From: Ignavibacteriales bacterium
GTDB taxonomy: Bacteria; Bacteroidota; Ignavibacteria; UBA10030
Direction of reading: 5' to 3'
Length of the DNA: 32,565 nucleotides
Assembly (NCBI GenBank): GCA_016194505.1
Contig: JACQBK010000021.1
Span: 1 to 32,565 of the forward strand
Position 1 is the stretch's first letter. Each line of letters begins with the position of its first letter. The notes below the pieces were generated by a model. It saw only the letters and a list, made by a program, of their open reading frames with translations. It searched no databases and was not told where the DNA came from. Both the position numbers and the translations under genes were made by a program. Below, in pieces: positions 615-6,538 of the stretch.

Positions 615-2022
615 ATGAGAAAGATTTCTTTACGGTCGCAAGTTATTATCATCGTTATGATACTGACGGTGGGTCTTGTCGGAGCCACCATCTATATTAC
701 CGATGCCATGGGGAGCGCAAAAGAAAGCATTGTACGCCTGAATAGAAACAGGTTATCGTCACTGCATTACCAAGGAAGAACTTCAAAAAAGCCCCGATAT
801 ACAGGCGGGATTTTATTCTTCACTGTGGAATAAAGAATTAGTCGGTGCGCCGCAGACCATCGGCGCGACAAGTTTTTACGATCGTTTTTTGCACTTGCTG
901 CTTCAATCAGCATTAGAAGAGCAGCGGGAACAATGGACCCACCATGCGTCTGCGGGCGGGGATTTTATTATTGTCGTCAAGCCTGTGTACGCGCGGAATC
1001 GTTTGCTTGGCGTTGCCTGGGCAATTGATGATTTGGCGGAAGATTTTGCGGCGTCATGGCCCGCGGATGTTACGCCGCTTCTTCAGCTTGCCATTGTGTT
1101 TGGTATCGCGCTTGCGACGTTTTTTGTCATTCATCTTCGGCGAGAAGTGTACAGCATTCAGCGCGGGTTGGAAGCGATGAAAGGGGACATCTCAAAGCGT
1201 TTGCCGACATCTTCATCGGAGTTCGGATACATTGCATCCTCGATTAACGGCTTAGCGGATACCATTACGCGTCAGCAACAAGAGCGAGAGACCTTACAGA
1301 CGGTCATTCAGCAGAAAGAGAAACTTGCTTCATTGGGGCAATTAATAGCCGGTGTGGCGCATGAGATTCGAACGCCGCTTGCAGCGATTAAAACCCGCGT
1401 CCAATTGTGGCAACGCTCCCGCATCAGAAAACGCTCCAACGTAACCCGTATGCCAAAGGGGATTGGACTGGAATCCATGACGTTAGTCTTGCAAGAGCTT
1501 AATCGGATAGAGAGTATTGTTCAAAAACTTTTGTTTTTTTCGAAACAACGAAAGCCGCGCTTGCGCACGGTAAATCTCCATGACATGCTCAACGCGGCGG
1601 TTGAAACGCTCCAGATTGAAATGAAAAAGCATCGAATCCGCATAACAAAGAAATTTGCATTAGACGATCCCGAAATTCTTCTTGATGAATCTGAAATGCG
1701 CGAAGTTATGTTAAATCTCCTTACAAACGCCATAGAAGCAATGCCAAAAGGGGGTCCCCTTGCCATTGAAACATCCAATCAGCCCCTTGATACAACGGTA
1801 AGTTTTTGTGTCAAAGATTCCGGTAAAGGAATCAAGCAAGAGATTGCGATGAAAATATTCGACCCTTTTTTTACTACGAAAGAAACAGGGACTGGCTTAG
1901 GTCTTTCCATTGCGTATGAGATTGTCCGGGCGCATAATGGAACTATCATATACGCCCAAGGTAAACACGGCGGGTCTCAATTTACAGTTACACTTCCTCG
2001 CAACGGAGCGCACCAGCTATGA
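615..2022 (+). CDS. Sensor histidine kinase with a frameshift in its sensor region
   Basis: The N-terminus (ATG at 615) gives MRKISLRSQ and a membrane segment (about residues 9-31). This frame then stops at 831-833. From 742 a second frame, one base offset, is open to 2022. It encodes a periplasmic segment, a second membrane helix (LLQLAIVFGIALATFFVIHL), a HAMP-like linker, a dimerisation helix with the phospho-acceptor His (VAHEIRTP; His codon 1360-1362), an N box (NLLTNAIEAM), DSGKGI, FDPFFTTK and TGTGLGL. These are the parts of an intact HisKA-HATPase kinase of the NtrB/PilS/AtoS type. The two frames must join between 742 and 830, so this is either a real +1 frameshift or an assembly error; a run of six A at 785-790 is one candidate site. 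The stop overlaps the start of the next gene by 4 nt, so the pair is probably translationally coupled. The ligand is unknown. Confidence 0.78.
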
Positions 2023-3425
2023 TGAAATCCCCAGCTTCTCAGAAGACGTATGCGCCATCAGCGTTGGTTGTTGATGATGAAAAATCGAGTCGTCTTAATA
2101 TCAAGGATTTGCTTTCGTCTGAGGGATTTCATGTCGAAGAAGCGGATGATGGTCTTAGCGCGTTGGAATTTCTTAAACGAAAGTCGTTCGATGTTGTGCT
2201 CTTGGATATTCGCATGCCGAAAATGGATGGACTCACAGTCCTCAAACAAATGAAGAAACTGCAGCCCCAGTTGCCGGTTATTATGTTTACGGCATTTGGA
2301 ACAAGCGAGCGGGCTATCGAAGCAATGAAAGTGGGAGCGTTTGATTATGTGACCAAACCCTTTGATGTGGAAGAGCTTCTTGCGGTTGTCCGCCGCGCTG
2401 TCGAATACAAACAGCTTTCGACGGAAGTAAAGATTTTACGCCAACGTCTTGCAGAAGTCGAAGCAGGTGATTTTCAGCCGGGCAGGTTTGTCAGCAATTC
2501 ACCCGCAATGCAAAAAATATTTAAGACGATTGGTAAAGTTGCGCCGTCAGGTGCAACTGTGCTTATCGAAGGAGAAACGGGCACGGGCAAGGAGCTTATT
2601 GCTAATGCGATATGGTATCATTCAACGAGAAAGGAGCGCCCCTTTATTAAAGTGAATTGCGCAGCAATTCCGGAAGGGCTGCTTGAAAGTGAGTTGTTTG
2701 GGCACGAACGTGGAGCATTTACAGATGCCCATGCCCAGCGCAAAGGTCATTTTGAAATGGCGGATGGAGGCACGTTGTTTCTGGACGAAGTGGCTGAAAT
2801 GAGCCCAAAATTACAATCAAAATTATTGCGTGTGCTTGAGCAAAATGAATTTAATCGGGTTGGCGGGAAAGAAACATTACATGTAGATGTGCGCATCATC
2901 GCTGCCACAAATCGTAGCTTGCGCGAAGAGATCAAAACGGGAAGATTTCGTAAAGATCTCTACTATCGGTTGCAGGTCATTTATCTTGTTGTTCCCCCTT
3001 TACGCGAACGGGTAGAAGATATTCCTCAGCTCGTCGAACACTTTCTAAAAAAGTATGGTCGAAAGCGAGATCTTATTCTTTCCAACGAAGCAATGCTTGC
3101 GTTACAGGAGTATAGCTGGCCCGGCAATGTTCGTGAACTTGAAAACGTCATTGAGCGCGCTACAGTATTGGTGCAGGGTAAGCTCATTACTTTAGAGTAT
3201 TTATCCCTTCCCCGTAGTACTTTAGGCGTGATGGAAAAGACAGATTATCAAACCGGAGGAGGCTCAACGCTTCCGTTGCGAAAAATTCTTTCCGAGGTGG
3301 AGCGCGATGTGATTTTCAAAGCGCTACAACAAGCGAAGTGGAACAAAACGAAGGCGGCAAAGATATTGCAAATTGACAGGCGGGTATTGTTCGATAAAAT
3401 TAAAGAATACGACCTCCAACCTTGA
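2019..3425 (+). CDS. Sigma-54-dependent response regulator (NtrC/PilR/AtoC family)
   Basis: This 468-residue protein has the full bacterial enhancer-binding architecture. The receiver domain has acidic residues D19/D20, phospho-acceptor D63 in LLDIRMPKMDG and the Lys of TKPFD. The central AAA+ domain has Walker A GETGTGKE (about 185-192), Walker B LFLDE (D256-E257) and an arginine-rich C-terminal part. A Fis-type helix-turn-helix follows near the end (NKTKAAKILQIDRRVLFDKI). The sigma-54 contact loop reads GAFTDA (232-237) rather than GAFTGA. Its ATG overlaps the kinase stop (ATGA), so it is the cognate partner of that kinase. A sigma-54-like promoter with upstream tandem repeats lies directly downstream and precedes the pilin-like genes, which makes that cassette the most likely target. 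The PilR analogy is inferred from context, not from a diagnostic residue. Confidence 0.93.
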   Translation: MMKSPASQKTYAPSALVVDDEKSSRLNIKDLLSSEGFHVEEADDGLSALEFLKRKSFDVVLLDIRMPKMDGLTVLKQMKKLQPQLPVIMFTAFGTSERAIEAMKVGAFDYVTKPFDVEELLAVVRRAVEYKQLSTEVKILRQRLAEVEAGDFQPGRFVSNSPAMQKIFKTIGKVAPSGATVLIEGETGTGKELIANAIWYHSTRKERPFIKVNCAAIPEGLLESELFGHERGAFTDAHAQRKGHFEMADGGTLFLDEVAEMSPKLQSKLLRVLEQNEFNRVGGKETLHVDVRIIAATNRSLREEIKTGRFRKDLYYRLQVIYLVVPPLRERVEDIPQLVEHFLKKYGRKRDLILSNEAMLALQEYSWPGNVRELENVIERATVLVQGKLITLEYLSLPRSTLGVMEKTDYQTGGGSTLPLRKILSEVERDVIFKALQQAKWNKTKAAKILQIDRRVLFDKIKEYDLQP

Positions 3426-3561: not shown

Positions 3562-3577
3562 TGGCATACATTTTGAC
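3562..3577 (+). promoter_or_regulatory. Sigma-54-type (-24/-12) promoter candidate
   Basis: TGGCATACATTTTGAC matches the consensus TGGCAC-R-N4-TTGCW with correct GG-to-G(C/A) spacing; the deviations are T for C in the -24 block and A for C in the -12 block. The predicted transcript start is near 3587, about 30 bp before the ATG at 3618. It lies between a sigma-54 activator gene and the pilin-like cassette, which strengthens the call. Confidence 0.6.
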
Positions 3578-3617: not shown

Positions 3618-4127
3618 ATGAATACGGGTCAAATGTTGCTGGCAACGGGTGCATTGGTTCTTTTGGGAACCACCATTATCACTATTAACAGGATGTACAA
3701 CAGCCAAGGGGACGTATTGAGACAAACGGAAATCGGTGTCTATGCAGTCTCTCTTGCAACCTCGATCATTGAGGAAGCCGGAGGCCAAAATTTCGATGAA
3801 GCAACGGTCAATGATGCGGTAACCTTAACAACGTCGCTGACGGCGGTCAATTCCTTGGGACCCGATGCCGGTGAAACGACAACCCCTGCTTCGGCAGACA
3901 AATTTGATGATTTCGATGATTACAATAATCTCACGATGGGAATGAAGATTGCCGGCGTTGATTCGTTTACCGTTAAAGCAAAAGTATATTATGTTGATGA
4001 TGCCAACCCGACCATCGCTGTTGCAACGCGAACGTGGTTTAAGCGATTAGATGTCTCTGTCTATGCAACTGCAACAACCGACACAATAAAAATGTCGTAC
4101 GTTTTCAGTTATTTTAATTTTAGGTGA
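3618..4127 (+). CDS. Pilin-like protein with one N-terminal membrane helix, no prepilin leader
   Basis: The product is about 169 residues. It opens with MNTGQMLLATGALVLLGTTI, a hydrophobic helix starting almost at the first residue, then NRMYNSQGD and a soluble domain rich in T, D, N and V with alternating hydrophobic residues. This resembles the layout of a mature type IV pilin or pseudopilin (N-terminal helix plus globular domain). However, there is no positively charged leader ending in Gly and no Glu at position 5, so classical prepilin processing is not predicted. I use ATG 3618, which has an AGG about 10 nt upstream, rather than TTG 3612. It is the first gene after the sigma-54-like promoter and heads a four-gene run. 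No family was recognised with certainty. Confidence 0.75.
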   Translation: MNTGQMLLATGALVLLGTTIITINRMYNSQGDVLRQTEIGVYAVSLATSIIEEAGGQNFDEATVNDAVTLTTSLTAVNSLGPDAGETTTPASADKFDDFDDYNNLTMGMKIAGVDSFTVKAKVYYVDDANPTIAVATRTWFKRLDVSVYATATTDTIKMSYVFSYFNFR

Positions 4128-4131
4128 GGTC

Positions 4132-4749
4132 ATGGGATCGAGCTCTATGATGGATATTATCGGTTCGATGTTAGTTGCAGGCATCCTCTTCCTCATGGCA
4201 TTGCGGCTTAATGCCGGAGCGAATGAAACCTCCGCCGTCTATAACTCGAGTTACATTTTGCAGAGAAACATGACAACGCTTGTTGGTATCGTTGAAGACG
4301 ACTTCCGAAAAATTGGATATTGCAAAGATTGGCAAAAGATCCCCGACCCAAGTAAAGCGCTTCGTATTGCCGACTCAACGCGATTGCGCTTTTGGACGGA
4401 TATCGGCAACGATGGTACGTTAGATAGTGTTACTTATTATCTTGGTCCTACAAGCGAGTTGACTGATTCACCAAATCCTCATGATCGTTATCTCTATCGT
4501 CAAGTCAATAACAATACACCGCAACCCATGAATTTAGGAGTCACTCAGTTTTCTCTTCGGTACTATGATGCGTTGAATACGTTGATTCCTTTTCCAATCT
4601 CCGATCCTCGTGGAGTATATTTTATGGAAATTTCGATGGCAATTGAAACGGCGTTTCCGTACAAGCAAGAGTATGTCAACGATCCGTCTGCCTATCAAGT
4701 ATTTTTCAAGCAACTTCGACTTGTTACAAAAAATTTAAGGAATCGCTAA
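4132..4749 (+). CDS. PilW/GspJ-like minor pseudopilin-type protein
   Basis: The 205-residue product has an N-terminal hydrophobic helix (about residues 6-24, MMDIIGSMLVAGILFLMALR) followed by a soluble domain. That domain carries features seen in PilW/GspJ-type minor pilins: a D-D-F-R-K-I-G-Y segment after the helix, a STRLRFWTDIGNDG stretch, SVTYYLG, LYRQVNN, and a late V-T-Q-F-S-L-R-Y-Y-D strand. As in its neighbours, the prepilin peptidase signature (Gly before an F/M-T-L-I-E start) is not evident. The start lies 4 nt after the previous stop with a GAGG overlapping that stop, so expression is probably coupled. A role as a minor component of a secretion or surface-fibre pseudopilus is inferred from this resemblance. 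Confidence 0.7.
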   Translation: MGSSSMMDIIGSMLVAGILFLMALRLNAGANETSAVYNSSYILQRNMTTLVGIVEDDFRKIGYCKDWQKIPDPSKALRIADSTRLRFWTDIGNDGTLDSVTYYLGPTSELTDSPNPHDRYLYRQVNNNTPQPMNLGVTQFSLRYYDALNTLIPFPISDPRGVYFMEISMAIETAFPYKQEYVNDPSAYQVFFKQLRLVTKNLRNR

Positions 4750-4753
4750 CCCT

Positions 4754-5974
4754 ATGGGACGCACATCCCTTATCATGGTCATTACTTTTAATTTGGTGTT
4801 TGCCACAATCGGCTTTAATTTATCGAAAGTTGCGGTGGACGCCTATGATAATTATGTTGACTATTATAATCGAACCGTTGCGCATCATATAGCAACAAGC
4901 GCCGCCAATATGGCTGCAACACAGATTACATTTAATCCCAATTGGCGTACGGGCTATCCCAATACAAGTTTTGCCGGCGGGACTTATAATGCATCTGTTT
5001 CGACTGTTGATTCAGGGAGAATTCAACTCGTTGTCAACGCTACCTATAATAACAAAACGGCTACCACTGTACTTCTTTTGGGGCTTACTAAATTTTCAAA
5101 GTTTGCTTATTATAGTAAAATCGAAGGAGCGATTTACTGGATTACCGGAGATACCGTCTTCGGACCTTTCCATACTCAACAAAAGATCAATGTTTCTGGC
5201 AGTCCGGTCTTTGTAGGCAAAGCGACATCAAAAAATGGAATTTTCCTCAGTCCGTCCAATTCAACGCCGAAATTTTTAGGAGGCTATCAAAGCGGGGTTG
5301 ATATCAATCTTCCAACGGACTTTAGTGCGCTCAAAAGTTATGCGCAAAACGGAGGGAAGTATACGAACAACCAAGATATGTATTTAAAATTTAATCCAGA
5401 CGGGACAGTAACATATCGGTTTGGATCATGGACTGCTCCACCCGCCTATACTGAATCTATAAGCGCCTTTGCGCCTAATGGCGTGTTGATGGTGGATAAC
5501 GCCAACCTTCATATTAAAGGTCAAGTGAATGGTAAGTTGACAATTTCTGCAACGGGAAGTTCCGGGGCAGCAAAAGGGAATGTTTGGGTTGACTCCTCTG
5601 TTACGTATCAGACAAACCCTCTGCTGAATCCCTCATCAACAAACATGCTTGGCATAGTCTGCGATAATGATGTTATTGTTGCCGATAATAGCAATAATAA
5701 TAACCCTGTGAACGGCGTGCAAATTCATGCTTCCCTCTTGAGCAAATCGGGAGGTCTAAAAGCAGAAAACTATAATACGAGACCCGTTGCCGGCACCCTG
5801 ACACTCTTAGGCGGTGTGCAGCAGTATCAACGAGGTCCCGTTGGAACCTTCGGTGGCGGTGGTATTGTGTCAGGATTTAGAAAAAATTATCGGTATGATG
5901 AACGTCTTATGATTGATTCACCTCCATTGTATCCTACAACTGGAAGCTATGAAGTGCTTTCTTGGTATGAATAG
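4754..5974 (+). CDS. Membrane-anchored surface protein (DUF4900/PilX-like)
   Basis: The 406-residue product starts with a membrane helix (MGRTSLIMVITFNLVFATIG), then a predicted helical stretch rich in A, Y and H, as in PilX-type proteins. A long beta-rich domain follows with GPFHTQQKINVSGSPVFVG, repeated glycine and asparagine, and a C-terminal half like a right-handed beta structure (ANLHIKGQVNGKLTISA...GNVWVDSSV...GIVCDNDVIVADN). The pattern resembles DUF4900-type proteins of FCB bacteria; that family name is from memory and not verified. Cysteine is almost absent. It follows the PilW-like gene by 4 nt and belongs to the same transcript. The presumed location is exported, anchored in the inner membrane or assembled in a pilus-like fibre. 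Confidence 0.65.
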   Translation: MGRTSLIMVITFNLVFATIGFNLSKVAVDAYDNYVDYYNRTVAHHIATSAANMAATQITFNPNWRTGYPNTSFAGGTYNASVSTVDSGRIQLVVNATYNNKTATTVLLLGLTKFSKFAYYSKIEGAIYWITGDTVFGPFHTQQKINVSGSPVFVGKATSKNGIFLSPSNSTPKFLGGYQSGVDINLPTDFSALKSYAQNGGKYTNNQDMYLKFNPDGTVTYRFGSWTAPPAYTESISAFAPNGVLMVDNANLHIKGQVNGKLTISATGSSGAAKGNVWVDSSVTYQTNPLLNPSSTNMLGIVCDNDVIVADNSNNNNPVNGVQIHASLLSKSGGLKAENYNTRPVAGTLTLLGGVQQYQRGPVGTFGGGGIVSGFRKNYRYDERLMIDSPPLYPTTGSYEVLSWYE

Positions 5975-5998
5975 CGGCAGTTGTAGAAAGGAGAATCC

Positions 5999-6430
5999 AT
6001 GGAAAACTTTATGAAATATTTGCATCTTCGACGCGTCGCAGGGTTTTTTACCTTCGCGATTCTTTTAAATGTTATTACTGTTCATGTGCTTGTTGCGGGG
6101 GATACACCTCTCAAAACCGTACAGCAATTTAAGCAATCGTTGGATGAAAATGATCTTGTGGCAATGTGCGGGTTGATGACTGAAACTGATGGTTCCGAGC
6201 CGCTGAAACGTGCTCACTATGAGCAGATGCAACAATCTCTGGAGGGGTTGGTGAAGCTCTGGCAAGGGGTTAGTTTTTCCTACGGAGAGCCGGAAACAAA
6301 TACCTCTCAAGAACCGAACCGTTCCATTGTGAAAGTAAGAGTTACTTCGCAAAATCAGGAAATACGTTTTACTCTCCTGAAATTTTCTGCAAGCTGGTAT
6401 ATTCTTGATATCGAGATTTTTTTTAAATGA
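5999..6430 (+). CDS. Small exported protein, possibly NTF2-like
   Basis: The 143-residue product has a signal peptide-like N-terminus (basic MKYLHLRR, hydrophobic VAGFFTFAILLNVITVHVLVA, probable cleavage after VAG). The mature ~110-residue domain reads TPLKTVQQFKQSLDENDL, a helical region, then beta strands ending with FSASWYILDIEIFFK. This order, an N-terminal helix pair plus a C-terminal sheet with a W-Y-I-x-D motif, fits lumazine- or NTF2-like fold proteins (SnoaL/DUF4878 type), but no family was recognised firmly. The ATG at 5999 has a strong AAAGGAG at 5987-5993. It is the last gene before a terminator at 6501, so it closes the cassette. Confidence 0.7.
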   Translation: MENFMKYLHLRRVAGFFTFAILLNVITVHVLVAGDTPLKTVQQFKQSLDENDLVAMCGLMTETDGSEPLKRAHYEQMQQSLEGLVKLWQGVSFSYGEPETNTSQEPNRSIVKVRVTSQNQEIRFTLLKFSASWYILDIEIFFK

Positions 6431-6500
6431 CAGTGTAGATTATTCTTCCAGCACATTCTAAAGAAAAATGTGGGATGCATTGCTTCATTCCACACGATGA

Positions 6501-6538
6501 AAGACTTCCGAACGCTACCAAAGCCGGAAGTCTTTTTT
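6501..6538 (+). terminator. Rho-independent terminator of the pilin-like cassette
   Basis: A perfect 10-bp stem, AAGACTTCCG (6501-6510) with CGGAAGTCTT (6525-6534), has a 14-nt loop and a run of T (6533-6538). It sits 70 nt after the last cassette gene and just before the guaA promoter. Confidence 0.9.

Follow-up and report, generated by a model that had tools for sequence, protein, structure and literature searches.

Three adjacent genes, A, B and C, in the window analysed here (the whole 32,565-nucleotide stretch, contig JACQBK010000021.1 of assembly GCA_016194505.1, from an Ignavibacteriales bacterium of the class Ignavibacteria) appear to encode minor pilins that are made without a leader peptide. 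We put at about three in four the probability that they form the tip of a machine of the type IV pilus kind, with pilins synthesized in a nearly mature form and with the prepilin peptidase lost. With less confidence, we also favour the wider proposal that prepilin processing has been dropped in a branch of type IV pili that is widespread and occurs in several lineages of a single phylum: the subunits of these pili would be near-mature, acted upon by methionine aminopeptidase at most, and their major pilin would assemble without Glu5 or peptidase-made N-methylation. The evidence lies in the families and order of the genes, their co-occurrence, their start sites and the absence of a detectable peptidase. 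In type IV filaments, the prepilin peptidase and the leader that it removes are treated as universal and as the defining step. If the proposal is true, the leader is dispensable and membrane insertion can be separated from maturation. Such pili would also test whether assembly needs Glu5 and N-methylation and would explain why neither pilA nor pilD turns up in pilus surveys of genomes of this kind, and the profiles of A, B, C and the major-pilin-like family MAJ described below allow them to be found.

Predicted minor pilins A, B and C and their start sites

The window is part of a 2.28-Mb metagenome-assembled genome (MAG) in 137 contigs, which is 90.6% complete. An initial annotation of the window had proposed a cassette of four genes for pilin-like proteins without prepilin leaders, and direct reading found the four open reading frames (ORFs), A to D, where it had placed them (Table 1). 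A hydrophobic helix begins at about residue 5 in A, B and C, and, as it had stated, no classical leader precedes the helix. Standard libraries (Pfam and NCBIfam) hardly detect the cassette, giving weak matches for B and C alone. These matches agree with what had been proposed for both proteins: B resembles PRK10557, that is PpdB (E=0.0023), and thus the GspJ/PilW type, while C resembles DUF4900 (E=1.4e-4, below the curated cut-off).

The assignment of A and B is supported by their predicted structures. The model of A (mean predicted local distance difference test score, pLDDT, of 85) consists of a helix of 53 residues (residues 3-55) followed by four strands, and that of B (pLDDT 73) of a helix spanning residues 3-59 plus a sheet. 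Re-alignment by VIA-align of the top 1000 PDB candidates of Foldseek placed GspI-family pseudopilins in the top seven rows for A (Z 6.9-8.0, with the first unrelated row at 6.2), whereas the best rows for B were GspJ-family chains and Thermus TTHA1219 (Z 9.3-11.1, with the next row at 3.6). Pseudopilins are thus the best matches of both models, the predicted pilin fold being clear for B and moderate for A (Z up to 8.0). When A and B were compared as profiles with the sequences in PDB, nothing pilin-like was found, and C alone gave no match. As the folds of A and B correspond to I and J, C in third place would be K/PilX; we therefore regard the three proteins as minor pilins of the GspI type, the GspJ type and, probably, the GspK/PilX type. 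In all 12 loci first fetched by a scan for B (labelled as Ignavibacteria, Melioribacteraceae or close relatives) A lies directly 5' and C directly 3' of B. Like the N-termini, the C-termini of A (SYxxFR, 4107-4124), B (RNLxNR, 4726-4746) and C (EVxSWYE, 5948-5971) are strongly conserved and may be contacts within the tip complex. Gene C of five relatives (L002, L003, L004, L005 and L008) contains an inserted CH-x-PPG...AHGD...C motif, possibly metal-binding, which is absent from the window's C.

Conservation in the alignments begins exactly at Met, and the start codon abuts conserved residues in A (M[NG]TGQ), B (MGFSTLLD) and C (MGGKA). Among the distinct proteins from all loci collected, which are an uneven sample and the basis of all start-site counts, an in-frame stop lies five codons or fewer upstream in 74/90 MAJ, 40/65 A, 45/64 B and 42/58 C proteins, which excludes hidden leaders for most members. 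No alternative upstream start exists in 88/90, 58/65, 59/64 and 55/58 of them, respectively, and the earlier start available to A in the window adds only two residues. A hidden upstream start in relatives had been named beforehand as one observation that would count against the initial annotation, and most relatives have none. The other, predicted folds unrelated to pilins, is not seen in the models of A and B, for which pseudopilins are the best VIA-align matches. A class III leader comprises 6-26 residues ending in Gly, followed by a hydrophobic stretch with Glu5, as defined in the part of a review dealing with it (PMC4471445). No such signal peptide is present in A, B, C or MAJ, and the sole partial likeness is that B has Asp where Glu5 would be. 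By contrast, the canonical pilins of peptidase-bearing genomes of the class have ordinary leaders (e.g., one ending in NRDSG, with FSMVEL after the cut).

The register of the alignments indicates how little precedes the mature protein. For A (against 9a1f_R) and B (against 9a1f_S) the first aligned pair joins model residue 4 with residue 1 of the pseudopilus chain. Position 9 of the MAJ profile aligns, in a sub-threshold match, with position 6 of the Geobacter pilin chain 2m7g, which we take to start with the first residue of the mature pilin. In this register the first mature residue would be matched, give or take one, by residue 4 in A, B and MAJ, so that each gene would encode a nearly mature pilin. 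In an alignment of B with Escherichia coli PpdB, scored against four proteins only, 61 ungapped columns place Glu5 of PpdB (its residue 12) opposite residue 8 of B, and according to this alignment and that of the predicted structure, Asp8 of B sits at the Glu5 position. The claim that none of the proteins shows Glu5 has therefore to be restricted to A and C, which have no acid there. Asp occupies position 8 in 48/64 and position 6 in 15/64 B proteins (63/64 together). Methionine aminopeptidase removes the initiator Met when residue 2 is small. A permissive residue 2 is found in 90/90 MAJ, 60/64 B and 54/58 C proteins and in only 22/65 A proteins, as well as in 12 of the 15 B proteins with Asp6, where trimming would bring Asp to exactly position 5.

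The probable pilus machine and the distribution of prepilin peptidase

The machine that A, B and C would serve is encoded on other contigs of the same genome. PilC-PilB-PilT-PilM-PilO-secretin are found together on one contig (C72), a second PilC-PilB accompanies another minor-pilin set (A', B' and C') on C54, a third A-B-C is located on C25, and one MAJ gene on C53. The ATPases and the platform protein match PilT at 1e-64, PilB at 4e-85 and PilC at 3e-27, and the secretin matches PF00263 at 4.3e-20. The initial annotation had suggested a search for co-occurring pilus genes: pilB, pilC and the secretin gene are present, while pilD, which encodes the peptidase of family A24, was not detected. 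The second PilB/PilC cluster also has, between C' and PilC, a gene for a double zinc-ribbon protein (L021, 14186-14515).

In relatives, the typical locus reads MAJ (1-4 copies)-PilC-PilB-A-B-C-PilT-PilM-PilO-secretin, with a short secretin whose ORF mostly encodes about 400-495 amino acids. Twenty PilC neighbourhoods were fetched, a non-random set in which 17 were picked for a nearby B and three without that condition, and some of these loci also went into the profiles that label their genes. PilC and PilB are present in 20/20 of these neighbourhoods, MAJ in 19/20, PilT, PilM, PilO and PilQ in 19/20, and A-B-C in 17/20. A-B-C lies directly 3' of PilB in 13 of the 17 (on the opposite strand in two, and with the contig ending before PilT in one) and beside MAJ in the other four. 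At least 31 of the 150 B matches listed, from 28 genomes, are within 7 kb of PilC. MAJ, which starts with MGQQQLLLIxLGVIIVG and has Gly2 in 90/90 proteins, was found in these PilC neighbourhoods, often in 2-4 copies, and appears from its sequence to be an undescribed major-pilin-like family. Comparison of 25 MAJ proteins with Pfam and NCBIfam gave mostly weak matches, the commonest Pfam match being the minor pilin ComP (6/25, best E=0.0011). The MGQQQ genes form tandem arrays of up to four, some nearly identical (L059, L063, L064 and L068), as if serving dosage or pilin variation.

These loci support the core of the initial annotation, a pilin-like, leaderless and undescribed surface system, and modify its outline. 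The A-B-C order in all 12 loci first fetched and the matches of the B profile in 81 of 149 genomes of the class go far beyond chance, and the order is also seen in three loci outside the class (L114, L116 and L120). D, with a convincing relative only in L049 among the loci collected, drops out of the unit. The idea of a stand-alone leaderless fibre was not borne out: A-B-C belongs, as its minor pilins, to a machine of PilB, PilC, PilT and secretin whose major pilin is encoded outside the window.

The absence of prepilin peptidase extends beyond the source genome, in which profile searches found, at 90.6% completeness, neither an A24 prepilin peptidase nor an N_methyl match. In a survey of 149 genomes of the class, for which a minimum completeness of 90 was requested, PilC was found in 78, B in 81, MAJ in 80, the secretin in 80, A24 in 7 and N_methyl in 9. 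The 78 genomes with PilC include 78 with B, 77 with MAJ and 76 with the secretin, and PilC and B co-occur at a Fisher p of ~2e-39, a value that ignores shared ancestry. A24 was not detected in 71 of these 78 genomes, and both A24 and N_methyl were undetected in 69. Four single-contig genomes (G030, G102, G107 and G137) carry PilC, B, MAJ and the secretin with A24 undetected, and the same A24 profile matches 12 of 14 controls, archaea included. Exceptions to the pattern are as follows: B occurs without PilC in G008, G062 and G096, MAJ without PilC in G004, G062 and G096, and the secretin without PilC in G004, G008, G062 and G103; G070 lacks MAJ, G075 and G076 lack a secretin match, and in G031 and G059 N_methyl is matched but A24 is not. 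Six of the seven A24 genomes contain a further PilC, with the canonical length of 355-400 amino acids, on the same contig as A24 in four, and the peptidase therefore probably serves another system; G013 retains a leaderless MAJ although A24 is present. At the level of the phylum (392 genomes), MAJ occurs in 136 genomes, 59 within the class and 77 outside it, and A24 in 46. A24 was undetected in 121 of the 136 MAJ genomes, including 67 of the 77 outside the class. Eight stretches from outside the class were inspected: six have MGQQQ genes labelled as MAJ, and the three mentioned above have A-B-C beside PilC-PilB. In L114 and L116, MAJ was found by profile search and left unlabelled by ORF picking.

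Proposed assembly model, alternatives and gene neighbourhood

In the proposed mechanism, each gene would start no more than about three codons before the prospective mature residue 1, leaving nothing for a prepilin peptidase, since lost, to remove. Sec would insert the N-terminal helix and methionine aminopeptidase would trim the first Met at most, residue 2 being small nearly always in MAJ, B and C. With A-B-C as the tip, PilB and PilC would then assemble the major pilin of the MGQQQ type into a fibre, which would leave through the secretin and be retracted by PilT. Of the three A-B-C sets in this genome, the window would contribute one, whose switch is probably the neighbouring sigma-54 two-component pair; the other two are on other contigs, as are the major pilin and the core machine.

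Several observations weigh against this proposal. MAJ, A and C have no acidic residue at the Glu5 position, and the second residue in A is mostly Asn (38/65), with which Met is expected to be retained. On its own, a Foldseek search of PDB found nothing significant for either model, pilins emerging only after VIA re-alignment, and a Z of 8 or less makes the A model borderline. The matches of MAJ to solved pilins (Geobacter, Thermus and others) are sub-threshold (E 0.09-2.1), the genome's own PilO falls just below the cut-off (E=5e-4), and PilM has no Pfam match and is named by its position. Moreover, the source MAG is incomplete, and the filament and its N-termini are predictions from gene sequences.

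Other explanations fit part of the evidence. The one to be taken most seriously, though we consider it doubtful, is that the machine builds a secretion pseudopilus like that of a type II secretion system (T2SS), and not a retractable surface pilus. T2SS minor pseudopilins are indeed the best matches of A and B, and Denise et al. (2019; PMC6668835), in the part concerned, describe a divergent, so-called T2SS of Bacteroidetes that branches with type IVa pili. However, a PilT-type retraction ATPase is encoded in 19 of the 20 fetched loci, with the genome's own copy matching PilT at 1e-64, the Thermus pilin TTHA1219 is as good a match for B, and the T2SS of Cytophaga hutchinsonii, in the section devoted to it (PMC5553014), has an A24 peptidase of its own, CHU_3197. 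Less probable still is that a peptidase outside family A24 cuts a leader of one to three residues at or near a conserved Gly (after M-G or MNT-G). Such a Gly, as though left over from Gly(-1) of a prepilin, is strongly conserved near the start in all four families (G2 in 90/90 MAJ, 50/64 B and 52/58 C, and G4 in 56/65 A), but at position 2 it also fits simple Met removal, the operon contains no extra conserved gene, and the 15 B proteins with Asp two residues closer to the start mostly lack Gly2.

It is very unlikely that a prepilin peptidase is present and was missed. The gaps of the MAG and the fast divergence of membrane proteases would allow for this; nevertheless, the class-wide counts and the single-contig genomes led us to reject MAG gaps as the cause, and a highly divergent member is hard to reconcile with the success of the profile on the controls, with the lack of any leader to cut on A, B, C and MAJ, and with the second, canonical-length PilC that accompanies A24 in six of the seven genomes with it. 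Misread start sites hiding longer leaders are scarcely credible: an in-frame alternative start can be found in 2/90 MAJ, 7/65 A, 5/64 B and 3/58 C proteins, yet stops close upstream in most members, the onset of conservation at Met and the two-residue gain of the window's only earlier A start all argue for the starts as read. Leaderless, near-mature pilins remain our preferred explanation.

The genes around the cassette (Table 1) suggest how it could be controlled. The histidine kinase is the probable partner of the response regulator, which in turn probably activates the cassette, a role inferred from adjacency. The candidate promoter is weak by itself (score 15/20, shuffle p ~0.15); some relatives (e.g., L052, L005, L008 and L012) have sigma-54-like sites with higher scores at 47-66 bases ahead of A, and from these and the adjacent sigma-54 activator we infer sigma-54 control. 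The kinase seems to be split, with a short ORF with a transmembrane start at 615-833 and the kinase body in another frame, which suggests a frameshift or an assembly error, and the short ORF may be its N-terminus. Gene D was ruled out as a fourth pilin, its one convincing relative among the loci collected belonging to a genome of the same family (L049). The terminator that the initial annotation had placed after D is probable by eye and was not reported by a scan limited to loops of 3-8.

Table 1. Cassette genes and flanking features, with positions in the window
Feature	Position	Strand	Basis
Gene A, leaderless GspI-like minor pilin, 169 amino acids	3618..4127	+	Conserved M-x-T-G-Q start; predicted model; VIA-align
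Gene B, leaderless GspJ/PilW-like minor pilin, 205 amino acids, Asp8 at the predicted Glu5 position	4132..4749	+	Weak profile match; predicted model; alignments
Gene C, leaderless, probably in PilX/GspK position, 406 amino acids, DUF4900-like region, conserved C-terminal SWYE	4754..5974	+	Third place after A and B
Gene D, small, probably exported, 143 amino acids, lineage-specific	5999..6430	+	No family above cut-off
Probable rho-independent terminator	6500..6538	+	By eye: stem ~6500-6509 / 6526-6535, then T
Candidate sigma-54 promoter TGGCATACATTTTGAC	3562..3577	+	56 bases before A
NtrC/AtoC-type sigma-54-dependent response regulator	2019..3425	+	Sigma54_activat 5.4e-73; Response_reg 5.8e-36; HTH_8
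Histidine kinase (HisKA and HATPase_c)	889..2022	+	Pfam HATPase_c 8.4e-25; HisKA 6.8e-11

Comparison with known systems

No report of leaderless type IV pilins was found in the openly licensed literature, a result that does not show their absence from print, and six characteristic N-terminal strings had no occurrence in the literature of that kind that was searched. The relevant items on pilins without peptidase were a remark on Melioribacter roseus and a note on Nanoarchaeota; further search gave work on peptidase knock-outs. The Nanoarchaeota note belongs to a review that, in the part concerned, records peptidases in all listed phyla except this one, where none was detectable (PMC4471445). 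Loci of the mannose-sensitive haemagglutinin (MSH) pilus likewise have no prepilin peptidase of their own, but there, according to the relevant part of Denise et al. (2019; PMC6668835), a peptidase is encoded by another system, which MSH genomes systematically carry. The putative T2SS of C. hutchinsonii, as presented in the section cited above (PMC5553014), shares with the present system a type IV filament machine, the same wider group and an affinity to type IVa pili, and differs in encoding CHU_3197. For M. roseus, the passage of the genome paper dealing with pili reports pilT, pilQ, pilB and pilC, did not find pilA and pilD, and judges the set probably incomplete (PMC3534657); leaderless pilins go unrecognised in that passage. 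Two MAGs labelled M. roseus (L004 and L010) carry A-B-C, as does Stygiobacter electus (L002), and the pil genes of M. roseus very likely belong to the present system, in which leaderless pilins without a peptidase would explain the missing pilA and pilD.

E. coli K-12 PpdB shares with B the ungapped alignment of 61 columns, with Glu5 on Asp8, and a GYC motif; it has a 7-residue leader ending in Gly, whereas in B only residues 1-3 precede the equivalent of mature residue 1. The gsp gene order runs I-J-K. A-B-C has the same order, and GspI-GspJ-GspK of the T2SS (Xcp V-W-X, Eps) provide the best fold matches of A and B; in contrast to these minor pseudopilins, the present proteins have no leader, GspO is missing and PilT is present. 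The type IVa pilus has in common with the system described here the assembly and retraction ATPases, the platform, a putative PilO-like protein, the secretin, and minor pilins built of a helix plus a sheet. It differs from it in its prepilin peptidase and class III signal peptide, neither of which was detected here, while the present system has a short secretin and a major-pilin family with no acid at the Glu5 position and no Pfam or NCBIfam match above cut-off. Because leader and peptidase are lacking, we do not file the system as an ordinary type IVa pilus; its gene content suggests that it is a variant of that pilus, built to work like one.

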